A DNA stretch of 64,000 nt from Marinicella litoralis. Its GTDB lineage: Bacteria > Pseudomonadota > Gammaproteobacteria > Xanthomonadales > Marinicellaceae. Each line of letters begins with the position of its first letter. The first letter of the stretch is position 1. Position numbers and translations under genes: made by a program. This document shows positions 35,187 to 44,207 of this stretch, piece after piece. The notes under the pieces are model-generated. The model made no database searches and was not told the origin of the DNA. It saw only the letters and a program-made list of their open reading frames with translations. The DNA is taken from the NCBI RefSeq assembly GCF_002591915.1, contig NZ_NIHB01000001.1, forward strand, positions 896,781-960,780, in the 5' to 3' direction.

Positions 35187-36398
35187 CTACTTCCTGATCT
35201 CGGCGCTTTTTTGGTGATAAATCAATCCTTCTGCAGCGGCCAATTTGGCCGAAATATTGGCCAATACACCTCGGCCCGTGTTGTTGATTTTTTGCGTTGA
35301 TAAGACTTTTAAAAATTGGTGCACACTCAAACCACCTGAAAATTTGGCCGATCCTGCTGTTGGTAAAGTGTGGTTAGGACCTGCACAATAATCGCCAAAG
35401 GCCACCGCAGAGTTCTCGCCAATAAACAGCGAACCATAATTGGTGAACAAAGCCGTTTTCATCGACTCATCACAAACCATCAAATGTTCAGGTGCGTAAT
35501 CATTAATGAATGACAACGATTGTTTTTGGTCATCTGACAACAACAGCACGATGTTGTCATTGGCCAGTAAAGCTTTACCCTTGTCATGATCAGCCAACAA
35601 GGTGTAAAGCTTGTCTAACAGTGCGGTTGATTCACTGACCACAAGGCTGATGGCATTGGCGTCATGCTCAGCTTGGGCCAGTGCATCATACATCAACCAT
35701 TCGGGGTGTTTGATCTGGTTGGCATAGATTAACAATTCACTGGGACCCGCCAAAGTGTCAATTTGGGTGCGGTGTTGTACCTGAGCTTTGGCTTGATTGA
35801 CGTAGGCATTGCCTGGTCCGACGATCATATTCACGGGTGCTGTTTGTGCAAAACCGTAGGACAAGGCACCAATGGCTTGGGCACCACCAATGTGTAAAAA
35901 TTGCGTTGCACCGGCCAAACTGGCAGCCGCTAACAAAGCAGGGTGGTCAGATGGCGAACAAGCCACCCTGACCGGACAACCGGCCACCTTGGCTGGGACC
36001 AAAGTCATCAAGGCCGTTGAAATCAATGGAAATTGACCGCCAGGTATGTAGGCGCCGATGCGTTCAATCGGTTGATATACAAACCCAAAATCACCCATTT
36101 CATCACTGAATTGGTCATTTTTTAAATCTTTGATTTGAAATTGGCAATATTTTTGGATGCGACGATAGGCACTTTTAATCGCATCTTTAAGCCCTTGATC
36201 AATGGCATAATCATCAAATGGTAATAAATCAATGTACTAAGCTTGTTGTTGGTCTATTTCTTGGCTGATGGCCTGTACTGCTTGGTCACCATGGACTTTG
36301 ATTTTGTGCAATATTTTGGCCACCGTGTCTTCAATTTTGCTCTGGTCTTTAAAAGCAGGTCGCTGGTAATCTTTGACCAGACTGTAGTTAACGTTCAT
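35187..36398 (-). pseudogene. hisD: hisD, histidinol dehydrogenase, interrupted by an in-frame TAG
   Basis: Two open segments in one reading frame are split by a single TAG at 36237-36239; the frame itself is not shifted. The N-terminal piece (52 residues) ends DQQQA, and after the stop the chain resumes with YIDLLPFDDYAIDQGLKDAI, exactly where HisD continues. The rest is intact and holds GGAQAIGALSYG, the Zn ligands in LAQAEHDANAI, the catalytic YAPEHLMV pair, AGPNHTLPT and the C-terminal His of LIYHQKSAEI. Length fits HisD (403 codons). Start is the ATG at 36398, overlapping the fused hisA-I-E gene by 11 bp. Without suppression it would make no HisD; sequencing or assembly error and a real nonsense mutation cannot be told apart here. 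Confidence 0.9.
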
Positions 36399-37623
36399 TG
36401 TTGCGGCTCCGCAAATCGTTGACAATTTCTTGAATACTGACGCCTTTGGCTTTGGCCATCACCAGCGTGAAGAACAACAAATCAGCCGCTTCCCAGCGCA
36501 CGTGGTTGTGGTCAGTGGCTTCAATCAACTCATCGCATTCTTCTTTCAGTTTTTCTATTTGTAAAGCTTCGCTGGCGAACAATGCTTGGGTGAAAGATTG
36601 GCCTTCTGGCGAATTGATTCTGGCTTCAAAGACTTCGTCCAAATAGTCCAAGGAATAATTTTTGGTCTGGCTGGCAAAACAAGAATATCGCTCAAAATGA
36701 CAGGCGTTGTTTTGCTGTTCAACCAAAAACAACAGGGTGTCGCCATCACAGTCGACATCCACTTGAACCAGTTTTTGGGTGTTGTTGCTGGTTTCACCCT
36801 TGGTCCACAGTTGTTGGCGTGAACGTGAAAAATAGCTACCAGTGCGTGTCTTTAGGGCATGTTCCAAAGATGCTTTGGATGAATACGCCATCATCAATAC
36901 TTTGTGCGTCTTGGCATCTTGCACCACGGTCGGTACCAAGGCGGTTTTATTGAAATCAACCAATGACATAAAGGCTTGGTTCAATGACATGTGGCCTGAG
37001 TAGATGGCCATACCAATTTGTGAATTGGCACCCTGGGCATTGATCCATTGCAAATCCTCATAATGGGTGATGCCACCGGCCACCGTCACTGGAATCGGCG
37101 ATGCCTTGATCACATCGCTGATGCGTGGTTGGTCTATGCCTTGCATCATGCCTTCTTTTTTAACTTGGGTATAAAGAAACTCGCCACAGTTTTCTGCCCA
37201 ATCCGCAATGATGTCCAAAACTTTCACATCTTGGGTTTTTTGCCACCCGTGGGTAGTCAAATAATCATCTTTGGCATCGATGGCAAAAATCAGTGCTTGG
37301 CGCGGTAATTTTTTGACCCAATCTTGACTGGCAGAAGTGCCAAGAATGATCTTGGTGGCGCCGGCTGCCAAATAGCTTTTTGCGGTTGCCAAATCACGTA
37401 TGCCGCCGCCGACGCGACAGGGCCTTTGACGCAACATTTTTTCAATCAATGTCTGGTTTGAGCCCTTGCCCATGGCGGCGTCCAAATCAATGATTGCCAC
37501 TTCACCATATAGGGCGAATTGTTCCAACAATTCAAAAACGTCTGTACGTTCAATGATCTTTTTGTCACCTTGTTCCAGTTGAACGGCTTTGCCATCCATA
37601 AGGTCGATACTGGGTATTAACAT
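36388..37623 (-). CDS. hisA-hisI-hisE: HisA-HisI-HisE trifunctional fusion
   Basis: 411 residues from MLIPSIDLMDG, with GGAG upstream; an ATG 11 codons earlier is less likely. Residues 1-225 are a HisA TIM-barrel isomerase (IDLMDGKAVQLEQGD, CRVGGGIRD, IFAIDAKDD with the second catalytic Asp, VAGGITHYED). Residues 230-325 are HisI cyclohydrolase (VLMMAYSSKASLEHALKTR, VQVDVDCDGDTLLF). The rest is HisE pyrophosphohydrolase (KLKEECDELIEAT, WEAADLLFF). It would perform three consecutive steps from phosphoribosyl-ATP to PRFAR. HisI-HisE fusions are common, but fusion of HisA in front is unusual to my knowledge. Confidence 0.9.
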   Translation of the reverse strand: MLIPSIDLMDGKAVQLEQGDKKIIERTDVFELLEQFALYGEVAIIDLDAAMGKGSNQTLIEKMLRQRPCRVGGGIRDLATAKSYLAAGATKIILGTSASQDWVKKLPRQALIFAIDAKDDYLTTHGWQKTQDVKVLDIIADWAENCGEFLYTQVKKEGMMQGIDQPRISDVIKASPIPVTVAGGITHYEDLQWINAQGANSQIGMAIYSGHMSLNQAFMSLVDFNKTALVPTVVQDAKTHKVLMMAYSSKASLEHALKTRTGSYFSRSRQQLWTKGETSNNTQKLVQVDVDCDGDTLLFLVEQQNNACHFERYSCFASQTKNYSLDYLDEVFEARINSPEGQSFTQALFASEALQIEKLKEECDELIEATDHNHVRWEAADLLFFTLVMAKAKGVSIQEIVNDLRSRNNER

Positions 37624-37760
37624 ATTTTCTCCGGTGTTTTCATTTGGCAACCACAACAGCGTAATGGGTGTTATCGAATGGAACGTATAAGCTTATATGC
37701 TCCCATGTTCCGAGCTCCCATGCCTTGATTTGTCTGCCAGATAAAACCATTATTTTAAGG
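37624..37760 (-). other. hisF-hisA intergenic spacer with repeats
   Basis: A 137-bp gap inside an otherwise tight operon. It holds the 12-bp palindrome tataagcttata (37686-37697), two copies of gctcccatg-like 8-9-mers around 37700 and 37717, and ggaac/gttcc flanking the palindrome. A processing site, internal promoter or regulatory stem are possible; none is proven. Confidence 0.4.
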
Positions 37761-38549
37761 TTATGTGTTCCTTATTTTGATGTTGTTATTAATTAAAAAC
37801 GCTTTGATTTGACCAACGGTGTATTCACCGCGGTGAAACAAACCAGCGGCCAAAACCGCATCAGCGCCAGCATGAATCGCATCTAAAAAGTCTTGCGGCC
37901 CTTTGGCGCCTCCGGACGCTATCACTTGTACCGGAAAATCTGCACCGAATTGTGCCAGTAAATCGGTGTCGAATCCACTCCCAGTGCCATCTTTGTGCAT
38001 GGCTGTGAGTAAAATTTCACCCGTGCCACGATCAACCACTTCATCGATCCATTGTTGATACGCTATGGGGACACGTTTTGAACCGCCGTGGGTGTAAATG
38101 GCCAGTTCGCCATCAGCTTCCAGATTGACATCAACAGCCACCACAATACTTTGTGAACCATATTGTTTAGAGATTTGATTGATCAATTCTGGTTTTTCCA
38201 CAGCCATGGTATTCAATGTCACTTTGTCAGCACCCGCGTGGAAAAATTTGTGCACATCATCCAATGTTTTGATGCCGCCGCCTACGGCAAATGGAATCGA
38301 TAAATGTGTGGCCACTTGATAGACCATGTCTAAAGCGGATTGTTGGCCATCGACAGAGGCTTTGATGTCGAGAAAAACCAATTCATCGGCCCCTTGCTGT
38401 TCGTACATTTTGGCCAGTTCAACGGGATCGCCCATATCGATTAATTGTTTGAAATTGGTGCCTTTGACCACCCGCCCATAAGCCACATCCAAACAGGGTA
38501 TGATGCGTGCGGTTAAATCTGAATTGGAATTTTTGTCATTGACATACAT
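37761..38549 (-). CDS. hisF: Imidazole glycerol phosphate synthase, cyclase subunit
   Basis: 262 residues. TARIIPCLDVAYGRVVKGTNF near the N-terminus carries the first catalytic Asp; VFLDIKAS, IPFAVGGGIKTLDDV, AVDVNLEADGELAIYTHGG (the second Asp) and IASGGAKGPQDF complete the TIM barrel. With HisH it turns PRFAR into imidazole glycerol phosphate and AICAR using ammonia from glutamine. A 12-residue extension (MYVNDKNSNSDL) precedes the usual start; no internal ATG is available. It overlaps hisH by 14 bp. Confidence 0.93.
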   Translation of the reverse strand: MYVNDKNSNSDLTARIIPCLDVAYGRVVKGTNFKQLIDMGDPVELAKMYEQQGADELVFLDIKASVDGQQSALDMVYQVATHLSIPFAVGGGIKTLDDVHKFFHAGADKVTLNTMAVEKPELINQISKQYGSQSIVVAVDVNLEADGELAIYTHGGSKRVPIAYQQWIDEVVDRGTGEILLTAMHKDGTGSGFDTDLLAQFGADFPVQVIASGGAKGPQDFLDAIHAGADAVLAAGLFHRGEYTVGQIKAFLINNNIKIRNT

Positions 38550-39171
38550 ATTGAATCAACTCCTTACCAAAAGCGCCGGATTTTTCAGGGTGAAACTGAA
38601 AGCCATATAAATTGCCCCTTTGTACCGAGGCACAGAAAGTTTGGCCATAAGTCACCTTGGCCGTAGCGAAGGGACATTCGGTGACCGCAAACGAATTCAC
38701 AAAGTAGGCAAATTGGTCTTTCAAGCTCAGTTTATATGAATCCAACTGAGCCCACCCGACCATTGGGGTTTTGGGGTGTGCAAGTTTTTGACAGCGGCCG
38801 GGGAACAAGCCCAAACCGACTGCTTCAGGGTCTTCATCACTGCCCTCGAACAACACCTGCATGCCTACACAAACACCGACCAAGCGTTTGCCATTGCGAC
38901 ACCATTCCAATAAAAATTCTCGCCAACCAGAAGCCTCAATCTGCGCCATCACATAAGCAAAACGACCTTGACCCGGCATTACTAAAACATCAATGTCCTT
39001 GAGCAAAGCAGGACTGGGTTTTTGCACGGTGCTTAACTCACAACCGGCTGCTTTGATCGCTGTTTGCATGCTCAGTAAGTTACCTGAGTTCAGGTCGATG
39101 ACACCCACTCTGGTTGCATTGGAGCCTGCATTCACCGGAGCATTCAAGGATGTATTTAAATTGGTGCTCAT
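38536..39171 (-). CDS. hisH: Imidazole glycerol phosphate synthase, glutamine amidotransferase subunit
   Basis: 211 residues from the ATG at 39171; a TTG at 39177 would overlap hisB instead. The N-terminal 20 residues are a polar extension, then VGVIDLNSGNLLSMQ, VMPGQGRF (oxyanion strand), GVCVGMQVLFEGS with the nucleophile Cys, and FQFHPEKSG with His-Pro-Glu completing the class I triad. It supplies ammonia to HisF. It sits between hisB and hisF with only a few bases of spacing. Confidence 0.92.
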   Translation of the reverse strand: MSTNLNTSLNAPVNAGSNATRVGVIDLNSGNLLSMQTAIKAAGCELSTVQKPSPALLKDIDVLVMPGQGRFAYVMAQIEASGWREFLLEWCRNGKRLVGVCVGMQVLFEGSDEDPEAVGLGLFPGRCQKLAHPKTPMVGWAQLDSYKLSLKDQFAYFVNSFAVTECPFATAKVTYGQTFCASVQRGNLYGFQFHPEKSGAFGKELIQYVCQ

Positions 39172-39173
39172 AA

Positions 39174-39746
39174 TCAAAGCACCCCTTTGGTTGACCGTTC
39201 ACCTGCCACAGGTTGTAAGGCTTCTTTCAAGGCATATGCCAGTGCTTTAAAAGCACCTTCAACCAAGTGGTGGTTGTTGCGAAAATACTGGTTTTTTAGG
39301 TGCAGACAGACCTTACTGTTGATAGCCAAAGTGTAGAAAAAGTGTTCCCACATTTCGGTATTGATGCCACCTAACATCGGTTGAGAGAAAGGCAAGTCAA
39401 TCACCGCGTAAGGTCGACCACATAAATCAACAGCACACAGGGTCAAGGCTTCATCCATGGGCAACAGTCGTTGTCCATAACGCTGGTTGGGTTTGGCGGC
39501 CTGCCATGCTTGGTACAAGGCTTCGCCCAGACAAATGGCCACATCCTCAATGCCATGGTGGTCATCAACTGCCAAGTCAGCGGTGACCTGTAAATCCATG
39601 TACCAGCCTGCGTGAGCAGCCAGTTGGTCTAACATGTGATCAAAGAATGGTAGCCCGGTATTTATATTTTTTTCACTGGGGTTGCCATTGATGTCTAATG
39701 ACAATTCTATTTGAGTTTCTTTGGTGTTTCTGGATACCTTAATCAT
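39174..39746 (-). CDS. hisB: Imidazoleglycerol-phosphate dehydratase
   Basis: 190 residues: only the dehydratase domain of HisB, no N-terminal phosphatase as in enterobacteria. The two duplicated Mn-binding motifs are DHHGIEDVAICLGEAL and NNHHLVEGAFKALAYALKEAL. It removes water from IGP to form imidazole acetol phosphate. It overlaps the hisC-HAD fusion gene by ATGA, and hisH starts 2 bp after its stop. The missing phosphatase activity is likely in the HAD domain fused to HisC. Confidence 0.94.
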   Translation of the reverse strand: MIKVSRNTKETQIELSLDINGNPSEKNINTGLPFFDHMLDQLAAHAGWYMDLQVTADLAVDDHHGIEDVAICLGEALYQAWQAAKPNQRYGQRLLPMDEALTLCAVDLCGRPYAVIDLPFSQPMLGGINTEMWEHFFYTLAINSKVCLHLKNQYFRNNHHLVEGAFKALAYALKEALQPVAGERSTKGVL

Positions 39747-41377
39747 AGTAAAGTCTCAAGTTGGTTGATGTTTTCAAGGACCACATCGGCCCCCGCTTGG
39801 TATAAGTTTTCAGTGGCCGCGGCTGTGTTGGCGCCAATGCCGATACACACACAGCCTGCTTGGGTTCCGGCTTGCATGTCATCGACCGTGTCACCACAAA
39901 ACCAAGCTCGATCAGCCTGTGTAGCGGACAACACTTTAAACAGGCCTTCTGGATCTGGTTTTTGTGCTTTGACATCATCAGCGCTGATGATGAATTTGGG
40001 TTTAATATTCAGTTGTGCAACCCCTTGTTCGGCTTCCTTTCTGGGACGACCGGTGACAATCGCTGTGATTGGCTGACTATTGAACAATTGTTGTTTCAAA
40101 GGGTCCAGTAATAAATTTTGTTCTTGCGCTACCAAACCAAGATTCAAATCATCGCCTAAATACAGTTTTTGAAATGTTTCAACCACCGATTCATAAGCCA
40201 CTTCAACGCCCTGTTGTTTTACCAATTCTGCTGCCAACACCCAGTCATTGTTAAAGCCACCTTTGGCTCTGGTGACTTCAATGTCAGTTTGGTTAACGCT
40301 TTGGCCGGTTAAAATGGCTACGGTTTGGATGATGCATTGGTCATAGCTTTTGGAAGTGTCAATCAATACCCCATCCATGTCAAAAGCCAAAACTTCAGGC
40401 GCTAAGACCAGCTGCAAGGCTGAGGTCAATGAGGTGATGTTTTCAGGGATGGTTATTCTGATCGCATTGGGTAATCCAGCCAACTCAGTTTTGATTTGGA
40501 TGCGCCGTTTACGCATCACCGCAGCGAACAATTGTTTTTGCATTGGATTGGTTTCAAACAACAAAAAATTACCTTTGCTGGCAAATGATTTTAGGCCATT
40601 ATTTGATAGCAATTGCTTCACTGTTTCACGGTTGTTGGCAATGGTTTGACAATAAGCTTTGATTTCATCTTTGGCTTGCCAAGCTGCTACTGCCAGTTGT
40701 AAATTGGCTCGAGATACATTGAAGGGCATGGCAATTTTGCGAAATTGTTCGGTCATTTGCGGCGTGCCAAATAGATAACCGATGCGCGCACCAGCCAAGC
40801 CGAAGGCTTTGGAAAAGGTGCGTAAGGTGACTAAATTATCATAAGCGGTGTAATCAATGGGTGAATCTTCATTGGCGAATTCCACATAGGCTTCATCCAA
40901 GAAAACCCAGGCCCCTTTTTGTTGTGCGGTTTCTATCAAATCAAGCAAAACATCAACAGCCAAATATTCACCAGTGGGATTGTTGGGGCGAGTCAGAACC
41001 ACCCATTGCCTGGCTGACATGTTGTCTTTTAAGGTTTTGGTATCAATCGATAAATCATCGCAAGCTGGGGTGAAGACGGTATCATTTTGCCACACCCTTT
41101 GGTTGTGGGTGTATTGACTGAAGCAGGGTTCTGGTATCAACAAAGCATAACTGTTCAGCTTACTGTGCTTATACAACAATTCAATGCTTTCATCTCCGCC
41201 ATTACTTAACATCACACTGCCAGGCGTTAAGCCCATGTCGCTGGCCATTTGATTTTCCAATTCGGTGCGATCCGGGTAACGCCACAAGTCTGTGACATTC
41301 AACTGAAAGGATTTCAGCCATGCCGGCTGTGAATCTGCCCTTTCATTGAAATCGAGTTTAAGGCTGGTGTTTTTCAT
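39743..41377 (-). CDS. hisC: HisC aminotransferase fused to a HAD phosphatase
   Basis: 544 residues. Residues 1-325 are HisC: LSNGGDESIELL, RPNNPTGEYLAVD, VFLDEAYVEF and TFSKAFGLAGARIG with the PLP lysine near 195. From residue 328 a HAD-like domain follows: FDMDGVLIDTS (nucleophile Asp), IVTGRPRKEAEQG, DDVKAQKPDPEG and CGDTVDDMQAGTQAG. All four HAD motifs are present. The aminotransferase makes histidinol phosphate; the HAD domain probably dephosphorylates it, as the operon has no other phosphatase. That assignment is inference from context. Confidence 0.88.
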   Translation of the reverse strand: MKNTSLKLDFNERADSQPAWLKSFQLNVTDLWRYPDRTELENQMASDMGLTPGSVMLSNGGDESIELLYKHSKLNSYALLIPEPCFSQYTHNQRVWQNDTVFTPACDDLSIDTKTLKDNMSARQWVVLTRPNNPTGEYLAVDVLLDLIETAQQKGAWVFLDEAYVEFANEDSPIDYTAYDNLVTLRTFSKAFGLAGARIGYLFGTPQMTEQFRKIAMPFNVSRANLQLAVAAWQAKDEIKAYCQTIANNRETVKQLLSNNGLKSFASKGNFLLFETNPMQKQLFAAVMRKRRIQIKTELAGLPNAIRITIPENITSLTSALQLVLAPEVLAFDMDGVLIDTSKSYDQCIIQTVAILTGQSVNQTDIEVTRAKGGFNNDWVLAAELVKQQGVEVAYESVVETFQKLYLGDDLNLGLVAQEQNLLLDPLKQQLFNSQPITAIVTGRPRKEAEQGVAQLNIKPKFIISADDVKAQKPDPEGLFKVLSATQADRAWFCGDTVDDMQAGTQAGCVCIGIGANTAAATENLYQAGADVVLENINQLETLL

Positions 41378-41381
41378 TGTG

Positions 41382-42230
41382 TTAAATCACTTTCCTGATG
41401 GGTAATTCAAGGATGTCGGTGGCACCGGCTTGCTTCAATTTAGGGATTAAATCCTTGGCCGCCACTTTGGGAATTGCGGCCCTCACAGAATACGCATCTG
41501 AATTAAATAATTGACTGACGGTGGGTGAGCGCATGGCTGGTAACAAGGCCACAATTTTTTCGATGTGTTCACTCAAACAATTCATTTCCAACAACACGCG
41601 ATTTCTGGCATTCATCACCCCATTGATTAACAACAACATGTCATCAATGACGGCTTTCTTCGCCGGATCTTGCAAAGCGGCTTTGTTGGCAAAAAATTGT
41701 GTGGCACTTTCATACACCACATCGCAAATTTTTAAACGATTGGCTTTGATGGTGCTGCCGGTACTGGTGTTGTCGATCACCATGTCAGCATCTTCGGGAG
41801 GAAAAACTTCGGTGGCTCCATAAGAGCGGATCAAAGTGGCGTCAAATCCATTGTTTTGCAAAAACTGTTCCGCCAAATTCATGTATTCAGTGGCCACAAT
41901 GATTTTTCGTTGTTTCAATGATTCATAATCCCAGTCCTCAGGAATACAGGCCACAATTTGTACTGGGTTAAAGCCCAAGGGTTTAATCACTTCTACCTCA
42001 GCGCCTTGTTCGGCAATCCAATCTAACCCAGAAAACCCTATGTCGTGCTGTCCCAGCTCCACCAATGATGGGATGTTTTGTCCTTTAAGTAATTTGATTT
42101 CAAACCGTTCATCTGAACATGTGGGGCGGTAATTTCTTTCATCTCCCATGATGTCAATACCAATGTCTGACAGCAATTTAACGATTTCTATTTGTAATTT
42201 CCCTTTGGGAATGGCCATTTTGATTTTCAT
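41382..42230 (-). CDS. hisG: ATP phosphoribosyltransferase, long form
   Basis: 282 residues, so the long HisG with a C-terminal regulatory domain and no need for HisZ. Starts IKMAIPKGKLQIEIVKLL; YRPTCSDERFEIKLLKGQ and VIDNTSTGSTIKANRLKI (PRPP-loop region) follow, and PIPKVAAKDLIPKL begins the regulatory domain that binds histidine. It performs the first and feedback-inhibited step of the pathway. It is the first structural gene after the attenuator leader, with hisC-HAD 4 bp downstream. Confidence 0.94.
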   Translation of the reverse strand: MKIKMAIPKGKLQIEIVKLLSDIGIDIMGDERNYRPTCSDERFEIKLLKGQNIPSLVELGQHDIGFSGLDWIAEQGAEVEVIKPLGFNPVQIVACIPEDWDYESLKQRKIIVATEYMNLAEQFLQNNGFDATLIRSYGATEVFPPEDADMVIDNTSTGSTIKANRLKICDVVYESATQFFANKAALQDPAKKAVIDDMLLLINGVMNARNRVLLEMNCLSEHIEKIVALLPAMRSPTVSQLFNSDAYSVRAAIPKVAAKDLIPKLKQAGATDILELPIRKVI

Positions 42231-42277
42231 GTTATTTTCTCTGTTATATTTGTTCGGTTCAGGCCGGTTATTTGGCC

Positions 42278-42304
42278 AAAAAAAACCCCGTATTATTGAC
42301 GGGG
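42278..42304 (-). terminator. his attenuator terminator 2
   Basis: On the minus strand, CCCCGT pairs with ACGGGG (42299-42304 and 42286-42291) and eight U follow, 48 nt before hisG. A competing 6-bp pairing TGACGG/CCGTCA (42336-42341 with 42297-42302), overlapping the stop of leader peptide 2, would disrupt it. Confidence 0.82.
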
Positions 42305-42338
42305 CTCAGTGAATTAAATGCGAATATCAGCGGCGCCG

Positions 42339-42389
42339 TCAGTGATTAGATAAGTGATGGTGGTGTGCTGTAGTGATTCGATTGTTCAT
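42339..42389 (-). CDS. his leader peptide 2 (MNNRITTAHHHHLSNH)
   Basis: A 16-codon ORF with four consecutive His codons (CAC CAC CAT CAC) and a fifth His just before its TGA. It lies between attenuator terminator 1 and terminator 2. A ribosome stalled at the His run would leave TGACGG free to pair with the terminator-2 arm. It has no counterpart in the single-leader enteric arrangement. The start codon ATG has no strong ribosome site. Confidence 0.8.
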   Translation of the reverse strand: MNNRITTAHHHHLSNH

Positions 42390-42419
42390 TGATTTATATT
42401 ATGTCAGTTATTTAAGTCC

Positions 42420-42452
42420 AAAAAAAAGCCCCGTTTGGTAAAACGGGGCTTT
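42420..42452 (-). terminator. his attenuator terminator 1
   Basis: A 12-bp stem (aaagccccgttt 42425-42436 with aaacggggcttt 42441-42452) is followed on the minus strand by eight U. A competing 7-bp antiterminator, AACGGGG (42484-42490, after the His codons) with CCCCGTT (42442-42448), is present as in classical his attenuation. Confidence 0.9.
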
Positions 42453-42475
42453 AAAGAATGCTTTTTCTTATGGCA

Positions 42476-42535
42476 CTATGCCACCCCGTTGTCAGTTAAC
42501 GAATGGTGATGGACATGTGCAAATCTTGTGATCAT
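42476..42535 (-). CDS. hisL: his leader peptide 1 (MITRFAHVHHHSLTDNGVA)
   Basis: A 19-codon ORF with His-Val-His-His-His and a TAG stop. An ATG three codons upstream (42544) lies within the -10 box and cannot be transcribed from this promoter, so translation should start at 42535, at or near +2 of the transcript. The codons after the His run (GAC AAC GGG GTG) encode the antiterminator arm. It senses charged tRNA-His and is the analogue of enteric hisL, though with four His rather than seven. Confidence 0.85.
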   Translation of the reverse strand: MITRFAHVHHHSLTDNGVA

Positions 42536-42542
42536 GGTTCGC

Positions 42543-42571
42543 ATGTTAGAGAGTATCGAATTTTTTGTCAA
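42543..42571 (-). promoter_or_regulatory. his operon promoter
   Basis: Near-perfect sigma-70 boxes on the minus strand: TTGACA (42566-42571), 17-bp spacer, TAACAT (42543-42548). The expected start point is at about 42536, so the first leader peptide would be almost leaderless. Confidence 0.85.
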
Positions 42572-42674
42572 TGGATTTTAAAAAGTTTTTAGCAAAACTT
42601 TAAAATTCAATACAATTGTTTTTAATCACCCTGAAAGGTATATTCAATGAACCACTTAACATTGCAGGTGCATT

Positions 42675-44207
42675 ATGACTGATAAGTCTATCGGGTTTTT
42701 TATTTTGTTGTCAGCGGTGACTGCTGTTGTGGCTGAACCGATTCATGAAGCGGGTGTTTTGTCATTACAAAAATTGATGAACTCTGGTGAGTTGACCGCA
42801 GCGCAGTTAACCCAACATCATTTGGAGCGGATTCAACGACTTGAACCCAAACTGAATGCCATCATCAGCCTTAATCCAGATGCGCTTAAAGACGCCAGAC
42901 ATTCCGATGTACTCAGAAAGCGCGGTGAAATCAAAGGACCCTTACATGGCATTCCAGTTTTATTGAAAGACAACATAGAAACAACAGGTGCTGTGGCCAC
43001 CACCGCAGGGGCATTGGCCTTAAAGCACAACATAACCAACCGCGATGCCAGCTTGGTGAAGAACCTCAAAGCAGCCGGAGCGATTATATTGGGTAAAACC
43101 AACTTAAGTGAATGGGCTAATTTCCGTTCGGAACGATCATCCAGTGGATGGAGTGCAATCGGCGGACAAACCAACAACCCCTACGACTTTGCCAGAAACC
43201 CTTGTGGTTCAAGTGCCGGATCAGCCGTTGCTGCCGCTGCGGGGTTGGCGACCTTAACTGTAGGTACCGAAACCAATGGCTCTATTGTTTGTCCAGCCAG
43301 TGCCAACGGTGTGGTGGGTTTGAAACCGACCTTGGGTTTGGTCAGCAGAACTGGTGTGGTGCCCTTGGCGCACAGTCAGGATACTGCTGGACCCATCACC
43401 CGTTCGGTCAGTGATGCTGCCATGCTGCTGACAGCCATGCAGGGCCATGATGTCAATGATGCGATCACACTGGACGCTAGAGCACATCAACAACGGGATT
43501 ATTCAAAGGCATTGCAAATCGATGGCATCAATGGCAAACGCATCGGCATTTTGCGCAGTTCCAAAGGCTTTCACAGTGAAGTGAATCAACATTTCGAATT
43601 GGCCATTAAAGAGTTCGAGGCGGCCGGTGCCACCATGGTTGATGACCTCAGCTGGCAGCCACCCAAGGGGTTTTGGGACGCCAGCTATGAGGTGTTGTTA
43701 TTTGAATTTAAACATGATCTGAATCAATATTTAGCCAACTTACCCAATGCATTATCAAACTTGACTTTGATCAACATCATTGCCGACAATGTCAACAATA
43801 AAGCCGTTTCAATGCCATGGTTTGAGCAAGAAATATTGGTCAAAGCACAAGCCAAAAGTGACTTAAGCAGTGATGAATACAAAGCGGCATTGGACTTGGT
43901 TCAACAAGCGACCCGAGCCAACGGGTTGGATGCTTTGATCAATGAACATCAACTTGATGCCATCATTGCTCCCACAGGGGACCCGGCATGGACCACTGAT
44001 TTAATCAACGGTGATCATTTCGGTGGCAGTTCTTCATCATTGGCGGCGATTTCTGGGTATCCGAACATCACTGTGCCGATGGGAAATGTTCACGGCTTAC
44101 CAGTGGGTCTATCGATATTTTCAAAGGCCTATCAAGAGCCCACCCTGATCGCCATTGCATATGCCTATGAACAAAGAACCCAACACAGAAAGCCGCCTTT
44201 GGATTGA
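42675..44207 (+). CDS. Exported amidase-signature hydrolase
   Basis: 510 residues with signal peptide ending about VVA/EP; AGGT site 8 bases before the ATG. Amidase-signature triad: the Lys in PVLLKDNIE, the cis-Ser in NPCGSSAGSAVAAA and the nucleophile Ser in TETNGSIVCPAS. C-terminal GYPNITVPMGNVHGLPVGLS is typical. Such enzymes split amides of peptides, acylated or aromatic amides; being exported, it is probably periplasmic and may act on cell-wall or scavenged substrates. No operon partner; divergent from the his leader. Confidence 0.88.
   Translation: MTDKSIGFFILLSAVTAVVAEPIHEAGVLSLQKLMNSGELTAAQLTQHHLERIQRLEPKLNAIISLNPDALKDARHSDVLRKRGEIKGPLHGIPVLLKDNIETTGAVATTAGALALKHNITNRDASLVKNLKAAGAIILGKTNLSEWANFRSERSSSGWSAIGGQTNNPYDFARNPCGSSAGSAVAAAAGLATLTVGTETNGSIVCPASANGVVGLKPTLGLVSRTGVVPLAHSQDTAGPITRSVSDAAMLLTAMQGHDVNDAITLDARAHQQRDYSKALQIDGINGKRIGILRSSKGFHSEVNQHFELAIKEFEAAGATMVDDLSWQPPKGFWDASYEVLLFEFKHDLNQYLANLPNALSNLTLINIIADNVNNKAVSMPWFEQEILVKAQAKSDLSSDEYKAALDLVQQATRANGLDALINEHQLDAIIAPTGDPAWTTDLINGDHFGGSSSSLAAISGYPNITVPMGNVHGLPVGLSIFSKAYQEPTLIAIAYAYEQRTQHRKPPLD

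Follow-up and report, generated by a model that had tools for sequence, protein, structure and literature searches.

Organization of the his leader and gene cluster

The window, by which we mean the whole 64,000-nt stretch of DNA that was analysed, contains a Marinicella his gene cluster on its minus strand. Two complete ribosome-mediated attenuator units are located between the promoter of this cluster and hisG (Table 1). In each, a short ORF containing a His run is combined with an antiterminator strand and an intrinsic terminator. The leader is 312 nt long, lies upstream of hisG and is divergent from an amidase gene at 42675. Its elements are ordered promoter, ORF1 (HVHHH), T1, ORF2 (HHHH), T2 and hisG, an order in which two full units for sensing and termination separate a single promoter from the first gene. 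The original prediction, made from the DNA letters, had proposed a near-consensus promoter and two His-run leader peptides, each followed by its own intrinsic terminator. The promoter and both peptides were found, as were both terminators at the level of sequence.

Table 1. Features of the his leader and gene cluster (positions in the window).
Feature	Position	Strand	Remarks
Promoter, TTGACA-17-TAACAT	42543..42571	-	10/12 matches; 6-7 nt gap recurs in 29/30 loci
Promoter boxes	TTGACA 42571-42566, 17 nt, TAACAT 42548-42543	-	
ORF1, leader peptide 1, MITRFAHVHHHSLTDNGVA	42476..42535	-	probably leaderless; His codons within 42517-42503
Antiterminator strand 1, AACGGGGT	42483..42490	-	inside the end of ORF1
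T1, intrinsic terminator	42425..42452	-	12-bp stem, loop of 4, U tract; compensatory changes in relatives
ORF2, leader peptide 2, MNNRITTAHHHHLSNH	42339..42389	-	His run 42365-42354
Antiterminator strand 2, TGACGGCGCCG	42331..42341	-	begins at the ORF2 stop codon
T2, intrinsic terminator	42283..42307	-	9-bp stem, loop of 7, U tract
hisG	41382..42230	-	first gene of the cluster; long-form HisG with HisG_C
Remaining his cluster	35187..41377	-	HisC-type aminotransferase-HAD fusion, hisB (IGPD), hisH (glutamine amidotransferase), hisF, HisA-HisI-HisE fusion, hisD

Domains in the cluster were assigned from Pfam, and the gene names are our reading of those domains. In the ORF at 39743-41377 (minus strand), a HisC-type aminotransferase is joined to a HAD-type hydrolase domain, which could possibly supply the histidinol-phosphate phosphatase step. 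The ORF at 36388-37656 (minus strand) is a three-part fusion, combining HisA-type, PRA-CH (HisI) and PRA-PH (HisE) domains. The hisD ORF, of 303 amino acids, lacks the N-terminal portion of the protein. This portion can still be read upstream, without a shift of frame, but is separated from the ORF by a single in-frame stop at 36237-36239 (minus strand) that could be a sequencing error or the mark of a broken gene.

None of 1500 dinucleotide shuffles of the 312-nt leader contained two units of a His ORF and a terminator, and only one of the 1500 contained a single unit under a lenient rule. No Rfam family matched in the window at its gathering score. At E values up to 10, the region 42230-42600 gave 29 weak matches scattered over many families, the His leader family not among them, and a known Rfam element at the leader was rejected on this basis. 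No match to the T-box covariance model occurred in the window or among the weak matches in 42230-42600.

Occurrence of the double leader among relatives

We compared 35 hisG loci encoding a HisG with 60% or more identity to that of the window: 17 from Marinicella, nine from a sister genus of the same family, seven from Kangiellaceae and two that are Aliikangiella-like. Two units were present at 22 of the 35, namely at 12 of the Marinicella loci, three of the sister-genus loci, all seven Kangiellaceae loci and neither Aliikangiella-like locus. For L018, one of the sister-genus doubles, the first unit is presumed, as the contig starts inside T1. The remaining 13 loci, including L058 as read by eye, have a single unit. 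Conservation of the second His run and terminator, on which the original prediction depended, thus extends over two families, and the doubles share their His codons, the terminator and a matching antiterminator. Of two more distant loci, L029 (a Planctomycetota MAG, 46% identity) has one unit and L031 (45%) has none. No hisG match was present in Marinicella genome G012 or in two sister-genus genomes.

We also surveyed 69 other hisG upstream regions, comprising 30 of the 31 other genomes with HisG_C (one contig was too short) and 39 chosen among the listed rows for spread over families and genera. At most four of the 69 have a His leader, all single, and none has two units; the stretches were placed from match coordinates with hisG starts unchecked individually, one stretch is only 79 nt long, and the terminator of L072, one of the four candidates, is doubtful. 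These data led us to reject a general gammaproteobacterial habit of doubling. Four own-family members (distant HisG, two other genera) lay outside the survey.

Covariance models of the units gave a similarly narrow range. The unit-1 model yielded one strong match per genome, of at least 71.9 bits and just upstream of hisG, in all 17 Marinicella genomes with hisG, 12 of whose leaders had been used to build the model and so match by construction. The next best match scored 37.1 bits. Six weaker matches were read, representing one Thr/Ile leader, two Arg-rich leaders and three without a recognised leader; a His run was absent from all six. In 274 genomes of the class, the unit-2 model matched strongly in the own genome only (91.7 bits, a sequence in the model), and all other matches scored at most 26.3 bits. 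Both searches score only the best first-look candidates and so bound the range roughly. Finally, a search of 369 class genomes with the Kangiella HisG, at E values up to 1e-60, matched the genome of the window alone; the class sample thus showed no sign of Kangiella, which also limits how closely the range is bounded. According to these comparisons, the double leader is, in the samples examined, confined to the hisG lineage common to Marinicellaceae and Kangiellaceae.

The first unit and its ORF

In unit 1, AACGGGG (42490-42484) pairs with CCCCGTT, a pairing that also comes directly out of the fold when a ribosome occupies the His codons. The unit-1 stretch of the window also folds better as a whole than its shuffles (z = -4.25).

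The -10 box of the window ends 7 nt before the ATG of ORF1, which leaves no room for a 5′ UTR or a Shine-Dalgarno site. The gap from the end of the -10 box to the first in-frame ORF1 start is 6-7 nt at 29 of the 30 loci with a promoter call, where a call required T at -10 positions 1 and 6; under a stricter earlier rule, which required A at -10 position 2, the same gap was found at 23 of 31. The exception is L030, with a gap of 49 nt; L003 is without upstream sequence, and L021 and L027 gave no call. Transcription from sigma-70 promoters starts about 7 nt after the -10 box. Given a gap of 6-7 nt, the first base of the RNA would be at or next to the ORF1 AUG. ORF1 is therefore probably leaderless in Marinicella and its relatives, which adds a probable leaderless leader ORF for gammaproteobacteria. 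This start was missed by the original prediction, which was made without knowledge of the phylogenetic range; the parts of the leader that it did list were all found.

The second unit

In unit 2, TGACGG (42341-42336) pairs with CCGTCA, again as obtained directly when the RNA is folded with the His codons occupied by a ribosome. The unit-2 stretch of the window as a whole folds no better than shuffles (z = -0.93; 32 of 200 shuffles as good), and the case for unit 2 accordingly rests on the comparative tests described below. In 11 of the 12 Marinicella doubles, T1 is the stronger terminator of the two.

ORF2 is internal, starting 17-69 nt downstream of T1. No Shine-Dalgarno site was seen before ORF2 in Marinicella, so that we infer its translation there; several Kangiella loci have a weak GAG. 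A second promoter before ORF2 was considered and rejected, as no site stood out from shuffles at the 21 loci tested (L018 was left out for too little sequence). The best promoter-like sites were those of L021 and L003, for which 0.18 and 0.20 of shuffles, respectively, were as good. ORF2 is thus probably made only from transcripts that have passed T1.

In four loci (L012, L013, L016 and L017), the T2 loop, GTCGCCATTG, has a complement or near-complement, AATGGCGA, between T2 and hisG. Through this pairing, transcripts that read through could fold an additional hairpin.

Folding with a placed ribosome

To model the choice at each unit, a ribosome with an assumed footprint of 18 nt back and 13 nt forward of the A site was placed on the RNA, and the transcript was folded up to just before the 3′ arm of the terminator. 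For unit 1 (n = 33), the mean probability of upstream pairing of the terminator 5′ arm was 0.94 with the ribosome stalled on the His codons and 0.16 with the ribosome at the stop codon. The corresponding values for unit 2 (n = 22) were 0.88 and 0.28. When the intervening sequence was shuffled, the His-stall values were 0.49 and 0.48, respectively. The margin of the His-stall state over the stop state was more than 0.1 in all 33 first units and in 20 of the 22 second units. In the two failing units, of L024 and L026 (both Kangiella), the stop state was antiterminated (1.0 and 0.99) because the ORF2 stop lies well past the antiterminator strand. Less marked exceptions were a weak His-stall state in L033 unit 2 (0.34), a leaky stop in L010 unit 2 (0.53), a leaky stop in L030 unit 1 and a His-stall value of 0.72 in L027 unit 1. 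With no ribosome, the means were 0.53 for unit 1 and 0.68 for unit 2, and termination was not clearly chosen by the model. The antiterminator pairings proposed originally, AACGGGG/CCCCGTT and TGACGG/CCGTCA, are both exact and are also those of the ribosome-state folding. Geometry and this folding model likewise support the proposal that each unit would be a His attenuator in its own right.

The distance from the first base of the last His codon to the antiterminator strand is 9-16 nt in all first units but two (31 of 33) and 11-19 nt in all second units but six (16 of 22). In the exceptions, it is 3-7 nt. Several of these short spacings arise from a stray His codon after the run, as in the window, where the strand lies 15 nt from the run itself.

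Matched changes and codon conservation

In dealing tests, the whole free region from the stalled ribosome to the terminator was paired with the terminator 5′ arm of its own locus or with arms dealt from other loci. Own-arm pairing averaged -12.9 kcal/mol against -11.9 for dealt arms in unit 1 (33 rows) and -12.2 against -10.1 kcal/mol in unit 2 (21 rows), and in neither unit was any of 5000 dealings as good. When arms were dealt within taxonomic groups, 46 of 5000 dealings were as good for unit 1 and none for unit 2; these tests correct for relatedness incompletely, and the figures are not probabilities. The own region surpassed 95% of its own shuffles in 31 of 33 first units (not in L025 and L030) and 19 of 21 second units (not in L033 and L018). 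A test on picked strands gave 193/225 against a mean of 183.3 for unit 1 (25 distinct rows) and 119/162 against 108.8 for unit 2 (18 distinct rows), with 0 of 2000 in each case, although it is biased to own pairing because the strands were picked by folding with their own terminator. The unpicked whole-region test agrees with it. The arms of T1 and of T2 also fit their own partner arms best (0 of 5000 dealings each). Individual two-sided changes include GC for AT in unit 1 of Kangiella and GTCAACAG with CTGTTGA in unit 2 of L010.

The His codons are conserved in the same manner in both ORFs. In the 12 of 17 Marinicella first units that were aligned, three His codons have kept their first two bases unchanged while the third base varies, and the same holds for three His codons in the ten aligned second units of the 12 Marinicella doubles. 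Such wobble-only change looks like selection on the His codons, in ORF2 as much as in ORF1. All 22 second units have at least three His codons, with runs sometimes broken by other codons in relatives.

History of the units

In a tree of the unit tails, built on few columns, unit 1 falls mostly apart from unit 2. The unit 2 sequences of the pacifica clade group with those of Kangiella (98/93). Marinicella singles are placed with unit 1, such that unit 2 seems to have been lost there. L010 unit 2 lies among unit-1 rows on a long branch, and unit 2 of the clade to which the window belongs sits apart. In the HisG tree (34 rows; L032, a HisG fragment, L057 and L058 were left out), the distribution of double and single leaders needs seven changes, of which at least four are forced by well supported branches. 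A single origin of unit 2 is possible, and the unit tree, with its few columns, suggests an ancient double leader that was lost repeatedly.

A model of serial attenuation and its alternatives

On this evidence, we consider it very likely that the his leader RNA carries two independent ribosome-mediated transcription attenuators in series, both responding to the same signal. This reading is based on the parts of the leader, their conservation and the matching changes in their sequences. According to the model, transcription would start at or within about 1 nt of the ORF1 AUG, and ORF1 would be translated as a leaderless message. With ample charged tRNA-His, the ribosome at the ORF1 stop would cover AACGGGG, allowing T1 to form and most transcripts to end. 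When His is short, the ribosome would stall on the His codons, leaving AACGGGG free to pair with the T1 5′ arm, so that RNA polymerase could proceed. Past T1, it would meet a second copy of the decision, made by a new ribosome on ORF2, the strand (U)GACGG and T2. Only transcripts past both terminators would reach hisG.

Since both units must be passed, their read-through probabilities would multiply, giving a lower basal level, a wider range and a steeper response. The lower basal level and steeper curve follow if the units act independently: were each terminator to stop nine of ten transcripts, one in a hundred would get through both, and in starvation both terminators would open. The original prediction allowed for either a sharper or a graded response; we favour tighter shut-off together with a steeper response as the predicted effect of the pair, in that two serial switches should hold the his genes more firmly shut until histidine is really low. 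What we infer from these features is where transcription starts, that both ORFs are translated, that termination and antitermination take place, and how the response is shaped.

In one alternative, only unit 1 would regulate, and unit 2 would be a remnant copy with a terminator that does no more than reduce expression by a fixed factor. Such a role would fit the lesser strength of T2 in all but one of the 12 Marinicella doubles, the dispensability of a unit absent from 13 of 35 loci, the lack of a visible Shine-Dalgarno site before ORF2 in Marinicella and the unremarkable folding of the unit-2 stretch in the window. However, across the ten aligned loci unit 2 has kept three His codons that vary only in their third position; its free region fits its own arm better than dealt arms, even within taxonomic groups; in L010, it has changed on both sides in a matching way; and it is retained in all seven Kangiellaceae. 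Keeping codons, pairing and presence is not expected of a dead copy, and we consider this alternative unlikely. In another alternative, the double leader would read two conditions. By this account, leaderless ORF1, with 70S initiation, and internal ORF2 would report on different states of the translation machinery in addition to charged tRNA-His, in agreement with the near-constant position of the ORF1 start after the -10 box, the internal position of ORF2 without a promoter-like site that stands out and the mostly separate grouping of the two units in the unit tree. The same amino acid run in both units speaks against it, and we regard it as very improbable.

The independence of the units was examined through their possible coupling in the RNA, in which the 3′ arm of an antiterminated T1 would be free to pair with the 5′ arm of T2 and block it, making a single decision rule both units. 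The two arms can indeed pair in all 21 doubles examined (-9.8 to -17.5 kcal/mol), a complementarity that arises because the units share a stem sequence. Own cross-pairing was nevertheless weaker than dealt cross-pairing (mean -13.7 versus -14.2 kcal/mol; 4846 of 5000 dealings at least as good), there was no sign of covariation, and cross-pairing was weakest in the pacifica clade and Kangiella. Coupling by this route was therefore rejected, with hardly any probability left to it in our estimate. Since T1 3′ arms show no preference for the T2 5′ arms of their own locus, we read the units as independent.

A narrower form of the favoured model, in which two independent attenuators act in series, combines this arrangement with the difference between the ORFs. 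Leaderless ORF1 and internal ORF2 would decide on tRNA-His twice, by different modes of initiation, and the operon would open only if starvation outlasts both. We offer this form tentatively, at well below even confidence. If it holds, the response would be near-digital, perhaps also varying with the condition of the initiation machinery, and the leader would represent the first natural series pair of ribosome-mediated attenuators for the same amino acid within the literature matches listed.

Comparison with known systems

In textbook bacteria, a single histidine attenuator precedes the his genes. The double his leader is a conserved variant of this classical mechanism and no new kind of mechanism. 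Among the literature matches listed, in which subscription papers are thinly covered and an earlier mention is possible, none described a biosynthetic operon whose first gene is preceded by serial ribosome-mediated attenuators for the same amino acid. This agrees with the statement in the original prediction that no double his leader had been described, as far as those matches reach, given their thin coverage of subscription journals.

The single leader of enterobacteria, hisL, whose mechanism is described in an account available in part (PMC9413887), similarly has a His-run leader peptide and a choice between antiterminator and terminator before the his operon. Marinicella differs from it in having two full units in series, a probably leaderless ORF1 and no match to the Rfam His leader. 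The leader peptide of trpL in Sinorhizobium meliloti is known as leaderless, its ORF starting at the 5′ end of the RNA (PMC7298713, in part). By the same partial source, trpL is one Trp leader of an alphaproteobacterium with a reported RNA 5′ end (PMC7298713), whereas the Marinicella start is derived from sequence.

Other leaders combine two sensors. The mgtCBR leader of Salmonella contains two ribosome-sensed ORFs, but these sense ATP and proline, whereas both Marinicella ORFs would sense His; as presented in the paper's metE comparison, mgtCBR is also without two intrinsic terminators, while each Marinicella unit has its own (PMC3641672, in the part available). In the mefA/msrD macrolide operon, which its authors call a 'double-lock', two ribosome-mediated transcription attenuators respond to one inducer (PMC10314930, in part). 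There, according to the same excerpt, a leader precedes each gene (mefAL for mefA and msrD, msrDL for msrD only) and the signal is a drug (PMC10314930), whereas the Marinicella pair, both members of which precede the first gene, would sense an amino acid.

Tandem T-box riboswitches, including those of Enterococcus histidine transporters, place two sensors of tRNA charging for the same signal in series (PMC9413887, PMC12452182, each in part). They differ, as far as these sources describe them, in binding tRNA directly without translation, whereas the Marinicella sensor would be a ribosome on a leader ORF. By analogy, tandem T-boxes are a functional parallel of unrelated mechanism. For tandem riboswitches and T-boxes, the available parts of the same sources anticipate a response that is sharper or digital-like (PMC12452182, PMC9413887). 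With the Marinicella leader, tandem RNA regulators that share one signal, as known from T-boxes and riboswitches, would come to include ribosome-mediated leaders as well. In the rimP leader of some Gammaproteobacteria, a second tandem terminator with a potential antiterminator lies upstream of the first, although leader peptides or amino-acid sensing are not described in the excerpted text (PMC2965389). Models of attenuation have asked how a single leader gets its sensitivity (PMC1183508, in part). Sister species with one or two units offer a natural comparison of the benefit and cost of a second switch.

Other leaders in Marinicella

Seven other loci of the own genome were scanned (leuA-like, trpE, pabB-like, ilvB and three aspartokinase loci, labels read from family hits). 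No double was found, and a general Marinicella habit of doubling attenuators was rejected. Only one of the seven, an aspartokinase locus, has an amino-acid leader with a terminator, in the form of a single Thr/Ile leader. Single Thr/Ile leader peptides followed by one terminator precede aspartokinase-type genes in L136 (own genome) and L148 (another Marinicella), their sequences being MMQNQTTTSTTLITTLQILVMC and MIKIIDTTTIITTIQKSVMC. In two other Marinicella, an ORF with an Arg run (VVVRRRR...) is followed by a terminator (L152, about 230-400; L153, about 200-310); both came up as weak matches of the covariance models. The downstream gene is, judging by its motif, presumably of the ornithine-carbamoyltransferase type, and these leaders may possibly be arginine-sensing attenuators.
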